From NCBI RefSeq assembly GCF_001507555.1, contig NZ_LQBO01000001.1, forward strand, positions 2,046,001 through 2,110,000: DNA of 64,000 bases. Direction: 5' to 3'. Under the pieces are notes generated by a model, which did not search any database, was not told the DNA's origin, and was given only the letters and a program-made list of their open reading frames with translations. The stretch's first letter is position 1. Every line of letters starts with the position of its first letter. Source of the DNA: Thiomicrospira sp. XS5 (GTDB taxonomy: Bacteria > Pseudomonadota > Gammaproteobacteria > Thiomicrospirales > Thiomicrospiraceae). Positions 1 through 47,412 of this stretch are shown piece after piece. Made by a program: the position numbers and the translations under genes.

Positions 1-133
1 TTTCCGAATCCATGCCACACCCCAAGTGCGGACCATGCTGTTCGATCGCTCCGACCGGCAGCAATGCGGCATCCATACCCTGTTCGACCAACTCGCCGAT
101 TTCTTCCCACGTCAGGTCATGCCATAACTTCAT
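1..133 (-). CDS. Creatininase-family amidohydrolase (N-terminal fragment)
   Basis: Only the first 44 codons are in the window; the gene runs off the left edge. The ATG at 133 is preceded by AAGGAG with good spacing. The peptide begins MKLWHDLTWEEIGEL and contains LPVGAIEQHGPHLG. The E-Q-H-G-P-H-L motif is the metal-binding signature of the creatininase family (creatinine amidohydrolases and related cyclic-amide hydrolases). The family acts on several small amides, so the substrate cannot be given. It is downstream of the binding-protein gene on the same strand, but a terminator hairpin lies between them. Confidence 0.8.
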   Translation of the reverse strand, partial: MKLWHDLTWEEIGELVEQGMDAALLPVGAIEQHGPHLGCGMDSE

Positions 134-26142: not shown

Positions 26143-26277
26143 CAATCTATACGATGGTTAGCAATCAAGATGCCAATGTCATATTTTTTTCACACTTCTC
26201 AGCCCAAAAAACCTAACACAATGATTTTATTAAAAAACTTCTCTAAACGATCTCCAGGACTTTTATCAAACAAACAT

Positions 26278-44247: not shown

Positions 44248-44277
44248 ACAAAAAACGCCCAGGCCTGGGCGTTTTGT
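44248..44277. terminator. Convergent terminator with CCAGGCCTGG core
   Basis: AAAAAACGCCC-AGGCCT-GGGCGTTTT between folB (plus) and the FliG-like gene (minus). The repeat is at 44259-44268. Confidence 0.75.
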
Positions 44278-44299: not shown

Positions 44300-44761
44300 T
44301 CAGCCTTGCCCCATCAAGGCCTTCTGTTCCTGGGCCGCCTGGCGAATCATCGGCACTGCCTGTTCCATATACAACGACGCTTGATGCACGGTAATCTTGT
44401 TCAAATCGTGGTAATCCTGTTGAAATTGTTGCCCGTTCTGGCGCGACAGGTTACGAATCACCTTATGGAACAGACGCTCGCCGTCCGCCAAACGCACCAT
44501 TGTCACCAATTGCTCCGGAGTGACTTCCGTCGCCAACTTTTGTAATACACGGTCATCCATCGACACCAACTTACTCGCCAGCGCACGGTAAGCGTTTAAT
44601 TTTTTATTCAAGCCGTCCATATCGGCCGAGGCCTGACCGCCAAGACGTTCGCCAACCAATTTGTGTAATAATTCCAGCGACTCCAGCGGCAACTCGAAAA
44701 ACACCGGTCCCATTTCCAGTATGTATTGACCGTCGTGATCACGTTTGGCGGTAATATCCAT
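44300..44761 (-). CDS. Small FliG C-terminal-domain-like protein B
   Basis: The 153-residue protein resembles the C-terminal torque domain of the flagellar switch protein FliG from about residue 63: SMDDRVLQKLATEVTPEQL followed by FHKVIRNLSRQNGQQF, which lines up with the FliG stretch DDRSIQxLLxEVD...FLxNMSxRAA. The first 60 residues (ILEMGPVFFELPLESLELLHKL) are not FliG but resemble the same part of the upstream neighbour. Predicted soluble, no signal. GGAAG precedes the ATG. It is 18 bases from its paralogue, in an operon of two with no flagellar genes around. Function unknown. Confidence 0.55.
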   Translation of the reverse strand: MDITAKRDHDGQYILEMGPVFFELPLESLELLHKLVGERLGGQASADMDGLNKKLNAYRALASKLVSMDDRVLQKLATEVTPEQLVTMVRLADGERLFHKVIRNLSRQNGQQFQQDYHDLNKITVHQASLYMEQAVPMIRQAAQEQKALMGQG

Positions 44762-44779
44762 GCGTCTTCCTAAACCTTC

Positions 44780-45244
44780 CTAAATGTATTGCGTATTCTG
44801 ATCAAAAAACTCGATTTTGCCCTGACATTCCAACTCGAACATCTTTTCGACCACCCGTTTAATGGCGGCTTTGGCTTCATCGTTATTCGGCGGGGCCGGG
44901 TTCGCCATATCCGCTTTCAATTGCTTGGCGAGAATCCCACCGACATTGCGCAACACCACCTCGTTCAATGTTTCGTCCTGAGCCACCAGCATCAATTTCA
45001 ATAAATCCTGGTTATCCACGCCGCGAACCAACAGCTGCACACCGGCGTCGTCCAGCTCCCGAATACGGCAACCCAGTTTAATGTAACTTGTCAGGGTCGA
45101 GTGGGTTTGGCCGTGCTCCAGCGCCACCAAATGTTCCAAGGTGATGTTCAGCAGTTCCACCGAAAAACGGTCCAGCCGAATCGACGCATAACCGATATGC
45201 ACCAACCACTCGTTTTCATGGACTTTTTTAATCCCTAACTTCAT
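44780..45244 (-). CDS. Small FliG C-terminal-domain-like protein A
   Basis: The 154-residue protein has an N-terminal 50-residue part (WLVHIGYASIRLDRFSVELL) shared with protein B and then a FliG-C-like stretch: ELDDAGVQLLVRGVDNQDLL, LNEVVLRNVGGILAKQL and a final helix AIKRVVEKMFELECQGKIEF, equal to the FliG end pattern IVRRLxExGEI. The N-terminal and middle domains of FliG are absent. First gene of the pair. It may act in motor control or in another switch-like complex; this is speculation. Confidence 0.6.
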   Translation of the reverse strand: MKLGIKKVHENEWLVHIGYASIRLDRFSVELLNITLEHLVALEHGQTHSTLTSYIKLGCRIRELDDAGVQLLVRGVDNQDLLKLMLVAQDETLNEVVLRNVGGILAKQLKADMANPAPPNNDEAKAAIKRVVEKMFELECQGKIEFFDQNTQYI

Positions 45245-45375
45245 CTCTGTTTAAGCCTCATGCGCAATGAATTCTGACTGAATAATGACTAAGCAAAAAG
45301 ACTGCCAAATCCCAATCCAATCTCAACGGATACTATACTATAATAGTCGAAATTTAAAATATCGAATGGCCTCGC

Positions 45376-46602: not shown

Positions 46603-47412
46603 ATGGAACAAACACTGGACTGGATTCAAATCACCTTTCTCGCCATTATTCAGGGTTTGACCGAGTTCCTGCCGATTTCCAGTTCCGGCCATTTGATTCT
46701 CATCCCTCAGTTGTTCGGCTGGCAAGACCAAGGCTTGGCATTCGACGTCGCGGTTCACATCGGTACTTTATCCGCCGTGTTGCTGTATTTCCGACAAGAC
46801 GTCTGGCTCATGACTCGTGACTGGACCACCTCGCTGGTCACCCGCCAGCCCACCAGCAATAGCCGCTTGGCTTGGTGGGTGATTTTCGCCACCTTACCGG
46901 CGGTGATTTTCGGTTTCATCATCAACAACGGTTTGGAAGAAGCATTACGCGACCCATTGATTATCGCCGCAACCACCATCGGGTTCGGGGCCCTGCTCTG
47001 GTGGTCGGACGTCAAAGGCAAACGCATTCGCGACGAACACAGCTTAAGCTTCAAAGATATCCTCATCATCGGCTTTGCGCAGGCCTTGGCACTGATTCCC
47101 GGCACCTCGCGCTCCGGCATCACCATCACCGCCGCGCTGATGGTCGGTTTGACGCGTGAAGCGGCGGCCCGCTTCTCCTTCCTGTTATCCATTCCGATTA
47201 TCCTCGGCGCCGGTCTGTTAAAACTAAAAGACCTTCTCGACAGCGCCCACCCGGTGCAGTGGGATGCGATGATTGGCGGCGTCATTCTGTCCGGCTTGAC
47301 GGCTTACGCCGTGATTGCACTCTTCCTGAAATGGATTAATTCCATCGGCATGGCGCCATTCGCCTGGTACCGCTTCATTCTCGGCGCGGTATTGATTGCG
47401 CTGTTTATTTAA
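46603..47412 (+). CDS. uppP: Undecaprenyl-diphosphatase UppP (BacA)
   Basis: The 269-residue membrane protein has the two BacA motifs: IIQGLTEFLPISSSGHL near the start (catalytic Glu and the PISSSGH loop) and LIPGTSRSGITI in the middle. It recycles the lipid carrier undecaprenyl diphosphate for peptidoglycan synthesis. GGAA stands before the ATG. Confidence 0.95.
   Translation: MEQTLDWIQITFLAIIQGLTEFLPISSSGHLILIPQLFGWQDQGLAFDVAVHIGTLSAVLLYFRQDVWLMTRDWTTSLVTRQPTSNSRLAWWVIFATLPAVIFGFIINNGLEEALRDPLIIAATTIGFGALLWWSDVKGKRIRDEHSLSFKDILIIGFAQALALIPGTSRSGITITAALMVGLTREAAARFSFLLSIPIILGAGLLKLKDLLDSAHPVQWDAMIGGVILSGLTAYAVIALFLKWINSIGMAPFAWYRFILGAVLIALFI

Follow-up and report, generated by a model that had tools for sequence, protein, structure and literature searches.

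To our mind, the way in which the flagellar motor selects, retains and lets go of its stator units is still an open question. In FliG, the parts outside the C1-6 domain bind FliF and FliM, the FliG1 and FliG2 proteins of Borrelia are full-length, and the brake YcgR is a PilZ protein. The roles of the FliF- and FliM-binding parts are partly described in PMC11087270, and at the stator contact the pairing of FliG D289 with MotA R90 has been reported as critical for stator assembly and that of R281 with MotA E98 for torque, D288 also being of primary importance (PMC6079164). Borrelia burgdorferi possesses two fliG homologues, of which FliG1 is reported to take part in torque generation with the stator (PMC7225975), and the clutch protein EpsE is glycosyltransferase-like (PMC3000366).

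The window analysed here is a whole stretch of 64,000 nucleotides from Thiomicrospira sp. XS5, in which two neighbouring genes, A and B (Table 1), code for small proteins resembling the FliG C1-6 domain. Our main reading, with a rough probability of 0.5, is that they are accessory motor proteins which dock on the stator without taking torque, and a flagellar-motor role of some kind is regarded as probable. No paper on free-standing FliG_C proteins was encountered among the titles and abstract beginnings listed in searches of open-licence literature.

Domain identity and predicted fold

A lies upstream of B on the same strand. The coordinates, lengths (153 and 154 codons) and 18-base spacing given by the sequence-only reading of this DNA were exact on recheck, as was its placement of the genes between folB and midA, and they are indeed far from flagellar genes, the nearest among those located being the flgB cluster near C1:1969.7 kb of the window's genome, about 120 kb away. 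Its assignment of both proteins to the C-terminal part of FliG is backed by profiles and predicted structures alike; the two outcomes it had named as counting against this, absence of a FliG_C profile match and a predicted fold other than that of FliG, did not come about. Against Pfam FliG_C (PF01706), A scored 41.5 bits (E 1.8e-10, residues 61-145) and B 32.1 bits (E 1.5e-7, residues 63-146), both exceeding the curated cut-off of 23.3 bits, under which the B copy of locus L164, from the genus designated g6, falls with 20.7 bits. The sole further match in the window's genome is full-length FliG with 125.9 bits, and the NCBIfam model of full-length FliG, TIGR00207, was matched by A (32.7 bits) and B (20.8 bits) over its C-terminal stretch only, far below its cut-off of 226.7 bits. 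A and B are members of the FliG_C domain family and are not FliG. The two are also paralogous from residue 1 to residue 124, a stretch that takes in the N-terminal part (hhalign 96.5%, E 8.5e-10).

Table 1. Positions of the features in the window
Feature	Position	Strand	Remarks
Gene A, 154 codons	44780-45244	-	FliG C1-6-like domain at residues ~56-147
N-terminal beta-beta-beta-alpha module of A	residues ~1-48	-	
Gene B, 153 codons, paralogue of A	44300-44761	-	N-terminal module and FliG C1-6-like domain at residues ~60-148
FliG torque-helix counterpart in A, residues 104-113	44906-44935	-	281=I104, 284=K107, 288=A111, 289=D112
FliG torque-helix counterpart in B, residues 108-117	44411-44440	-	281=Q108, 284=Q111, 288=Q115, 289=D116
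Putative sigma-54-type promoter site TGGCAGTCTTTTTGCT	45292-45307 (G000:C1:2091292-2091307)	-	~63 bases ahead of the start codon of A
Perfect 24-base palindrome AAAACGCCCAGGCCTGGGCGTTTT	44252-44275	.	Between the ends of folB (+) and B (-); read from the sequence

The palindrome AAAACGCCCAGGCCTGGGCGTTTT is likely to be a two-way terminator common to folB and B. On the other side of the pair, a UppP-like gene beside midA (window 46603-47412; same place in L061-L079) was seen in two strongly divergent forms, either about 30-34% or 73-85% identical to that of the window.

AlphaFold2 models were obtained for A from 20 sequences (mean pLDDT 82.8) and for B from 19 (mean pLDDT 80.3), and in both of them three strands are followed by helices that finish as the C1-6 bundle of FliG. 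FliG chains were ranked top by Foldseek for either model (E 3e-4 for A, 2e-3 for B). Superposition on the stator-facing end of FliG by VIA-align gave Z 15.1 over 91 residues at 1.6 Å for A and Z 10.6 over 88 residues at 2.2 Å for B, as against 5.9 and 7.3 for 9a67_B, the best non-FliG row; 8ucs_H, a FliG fragment solved with the MotAB stator, is among the matches with Z 12.6 and 9.1. A and B are predicted to have the fold of the FliG C1-6 domain.

A short novel N-terminal part common to both proteins had also been claimed. The common part stands, and it is without a consistent match since, besides FliG_C, no Pfam family was matched by more than 5 of the 20 A-type or 6 of the 19 B-type members at E <=10; its novelty is less certain, as the fold itself may be a known one. 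Searched against the PDB at E <=10, the A profile found FliG chains only, with every match starting from residue 59 on, and in the B model the N-terminal module has the lowest confidence (58-68 per block). Conservation in A is highest in this module (0.80 vs 0.61), and in B it is highest in the torque-helix counterpart (0.83). Such differing most-conserved parts suggest that A and B may divide the labour between them.

Residues of the stator contact

The residue comparison used an alignment of 46 FliGs, recovered out of 48 loci, together with 20 A, 19 B and five plus five g6 copies; FliG positions follow what we take to be E. coli numbering, and the coordinates of the torque-helix counterparts were derived from the reading frame. 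At position 281 all 46 FliGs have R and none of the 25 A or 24 B does, R being replaced there by I or M (20/20 A), Q (19/19 B) or, in the ten g6 copies, by A, F, I or V. Position 289 is acidic throughout (46/46 FliGs, 25/25 A and 24/24 B), being D in 48 of the 49 A and B proteins, and N at position 277 is conserved in them as in FliG. Position 288, acidic in every FliG (46/46), is so in 3/20 A, 15/19 B and 9/10 g6 copies; 284 is acidic in 46/46 FliGs and basic in 20/20 A; 264 is basic in 46/46 FliGs, 19/19 B and 2/20 A; and at 297 a K or R is present in 45/46 FliGs but never in A or B. In the alignment, then, the presumptive docking acid is kept and the presumptive torque arginine is lost, and the other contacts vary between A and B. 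Since 288 is mostly non-acidic and 284 basic in A, the stator contact may have been lost and not retuned.

The FliG of the window's own genus carries P at 244 and a glutamate at 288 as well as at 289 (11/11; L001, L004-L013), in contrast to A and B with their D at 289.

With regard to the partner, an arginine and an acid eight residues apart were found in the MotA of L164 and L156 (R88/E96) and of L174 and L186 (R90/E98), and R90/D98 was read from the sequence of the window genome's MotA (L178). This does not extend to the whole family, as the motif searches detected no such pair in many of the more distant MotA-like proteins.

Gene order, putative promoter and distribution

The order FolB-B-A-MidA was observed in 18 of 19 named loci, the nineteenth ending within B, and in six fetched loci (three of genus g4, one of g5, one of g7, and G056 of g6). 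All five genomes of one g6 group (G052, G054, G055, G059 and G060) have instead the order motA-motB-A-B, with gaps ranging from a 4-base overlap to 20 bases. Pfam identifies MotA_ExbB in the MotA of L164 and MotB_plug and OmpA in its MotB; the MotA proteins of the other four share 81-96% identity with that of L164, and their MotB-like neighbours were recognised by eye. The L164 MotA shares 37% identity with the closest MotA of the window's genome. The g6 A copies belong to the A clade (support 0.86, together with the g4 copies and a g4 fusion domain described below) and the g6 B copies to the B clade (support 0.99), apart from FliG. No sigma-54-type site was detected upstream of motA in any of the five loci; sites within genes occur inside motA in L160 and L164 and inside motB in L165.

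Presence of motA and motB directly before the pair in five genomes favours the stator side over the switch. The suggestion of decoys or modifiers of the motor switch made by the sequence-only reading fits as far as decoys or modifiers of the motor are concerned, with the evidence leaning away from the switch. A rotor-side role, in which A and B would enter the C-ring, stack on FliG or FliM as additional FliG-like subunits and alter switching or ring make-up, is unlikely: the FliF- and FliM-binding parts of FliG are absent from both, judging by fold and length, and the genes adjoining them in the five genomes are those of the stator and not of the switch, even though their predicted fold is that of a C-ring domain and in four PDB hits of the B profile (e.g. 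1lkv 99-214) the match to FliG already sets in at position 25 or 26, by which B may keep some region before C1-6. A promoter common with flagellar genes would fit this C-ring role just as well as it fits stator docking.

Such a promoter is suggested by the site upstream of A, TGGCAG-N5-TTGCT, which we take to fit the sigma-54 consensus. Upstream regions of 51 A loci were examined, of which 34 were distinct (the five motA-motB-A-B loci not being among these), and TGG-N8-TTGC was present in 27 of the 34, compared with 0 to 4 for other spacers (4-13), 2 on the opposite strand, and a mean of 1.5 and maximum of 5 motif-bearing regions in 200 dinucleotide shuffles; as the regions are related, 27 of 34 denotes conservation and not 27 independent events. 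A stricter sigma-54 pattern occurs 13 times in the window's genome, below the 17 of the reversed control, and the promoter case consequently rests on placement and conservation. Eight of these 13 sites are followed by a reading frame at a distance of 100 bases or less (L139, L142, L143, L145-L149; that of L149 is also inside an antisense frame), and the other five are inside long reading frames. Behind the eight sites are fliE-fliF, flgB-flgC, a CheA-like gene, a chemoreceptor, a HAMP-domain gene, a PilZ-domain gene, a Tsx-like channel and A, where fliE, fliF and flgC were assigned by eye and flgB has further support. The motif common to fliE, flgB and cheA suggests a putative regulation of A and B with flagellar genes, which argues for the flagellum itself and not for a separate system.

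In the window itself another sigma-54-type site, TGGCATCTTGATTGCT, at 26160-26175 (-), precedes by 83 bases a gene for an outer-membrane channel of the Tsx/DUF5020 type.

Another rotary or polarity system had been offered as an option, and nothing was found for one; the promoter motif is common with flagellar and chemotaxis genes. In its wider form, the proposition that A and B serve some other cell function (polarity, envelope, or a non-flagellar MotAB-like system) by reusing the FliG domain is likewise improbable, with arguments on both sides. The conserved folB-midA location outside a flagellar cluster, the several further MotA-like genes per genome and a related FliG_C domain that in g4 is fused to a membrane protein of two helices next to an ApaH-like gene are in line with it, and so are the drafts G034 (88%) and G048 (86%), in which A and B are present with no fliG, flhA or rod/hook match; flagellar genes being spread over several clusters, true flagellar loss is possible in these drafts. 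Against it stand the conserved sigma-54-type site and G053, the only closed genome without flhA, fliG and rod/hook matches, from which the pair is absent too. Across 62 family genomes, 53 have the pair and flhA, 2 the pair only, 6 flhA only and 1 neither; owing to the six flhA genomes without the pair, this table alone shows no dependence on flagella, and co-occurrence was dropped as the main evidence because the table is uninformative by itself.

The g4 fusion is a 292-296 aa protein beside the ApaH-like gene (L153:3525-4403 in G016; L154:3155-4045 in G018), in which a membrane-type N-terminal half is joined to a FliG_C domain of the A kind, scoring 24.6 bits in G016, and it represents a second form of the FliG_C-like domain. 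A relative of its first half, 206 aa long, 42% identical and without a FliG_C domain, is encoded in the window's genome (C1:2443234-2443794). The same genome (G000) has, behind a second MotA-like gene, two consecutive MotB-like frames (L192:1486-3731), the first recognised by eye.

The A/B pair was found in 55 of the 62 family genomes, namely 11/11 in the window's genus, 4/4 in g4, 31/32 in g5, 8/9 in g6, 1/1 in g7, 0/4 in g2 and 0/1 in g3; G039 was left out of the 55 (raw tally 56), its sole match being a FliG-sized frame. By their listed coordinates A and B adjoin each other across the family genomes, and irregular B copies are those of G044 (split between contigs), G048 (shortened) and G021 (one in-frame stop, 1 of 55 B matches). 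With A as query, the collection of named genomes yielded 19 loci, from Hydrogenovibrio, Thiomicrorhabdus, Thiomicrospira and unclassified gammaproteobacterial drafts. Outside the family, the matches listed in a class sample of 369 genomes were in FliG-sized frames except that of G281 (237 aa, near a contig start), and in a phylum sample of 398 genomes the single full-length match was that of G626, with G554 (103 aa) and, close to the start of its contig, G582 (256 aa) also among the matches listed. G626 is assigned to another class, and its contig (G626:C155, L219) carries the gene order PlsY, FolB, B, A, MidA, UppP; this being the family's own order, the contig is read as misbinned. Among the matches listed for these 369 class and 398 phylum genomes, there is no convincing A/B copy beyond the family. 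A phage or defence origin was set aside, with no PHROGs or PADLOC match at E <=1, as was plasmid carriage, with no match in the plasmid search using A as query.

In a rough tree built on about 113 columns, A and B form clades separate from FliG that may be termed old. That A and B are decaying, functionless leftovers of a FliG duplication is extremely improbable and already contradicted by the conservation data, for the in-frame stop of G021 is outweighed by purifying selection (dN/dS 0.018-0.092 in 8 of 10 comparisons, all those computable, dS being saturated in the other two), by pairs across five genera, by the conserved promoter site and by these separate clades.

Proposed role and known systems

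On our main reading, which sees in A and B accessory components of the flagellar motor, they would most likely act together as an A-B complex, and their C1-6-like domains would dock on the cytoplasmic ring of MotA. With the acid at 289 kept and arginine 281 lost, they would hold, place or disengage stator units and not receive their push, which may either help or brake the motor; A and B would then be a rotor mimic serving as stator adaptor or clutch. Speaking against this reading are the drafts G034 and G048, the altered positions 284 and 288 of A, the lack of a sigma-54-type site before motA in the five g6 loci and the 37% identity of the L164 MotA to its closest counterpart in the window's genome. 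More tentatively, and with odds against it, the pair can be envisaged as a torque-dead mimic of the rotor's stator-contact domain that docks on MotA, sets the number of engaged stators and evolved within one sulfur-oxidising family. If true, this would amount to control of the flagellar motor by rotor mimicry. By means of a natural protein that has the stator-contact domain only, with the docking acid and without the torque residue, docking and torque could be uncoupled in live cells. The motor of Hydrogenovibrio crunogenus has been imaged in cryotomograms (PMC8263016), and hence extra density around the motor could be sought.

Among known systems, the FliG C1-6 domain (D5, PF01706) is the closest, with its likeness to A and B seen in the profile scores over the cut-off, the predicted fold, N at 277 and the acid at 289. 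A and B differ from FliG in being free-standing proteins of 154 and 153 aa without its N-terminal and middle domains and with a new N-terminal module, in having lost R281 and R297 in both, and in the basic residue at 284 of A. The FliG1 and FliG2 of Borrelia burgdorferi are comparable as multiple FliG-related proteins of a single motor lineage, whereas A and B hold the last domain only and occur as a tandem pair. Should the stator reading be true, A and B would resemble the brake YcgR and the clutch EpsE in acting at the MotA-FliG contact (PMC10140304, PMC3000366); these, however, are unrelated proteins, while A and B would imitate the rotor's own contact domain.
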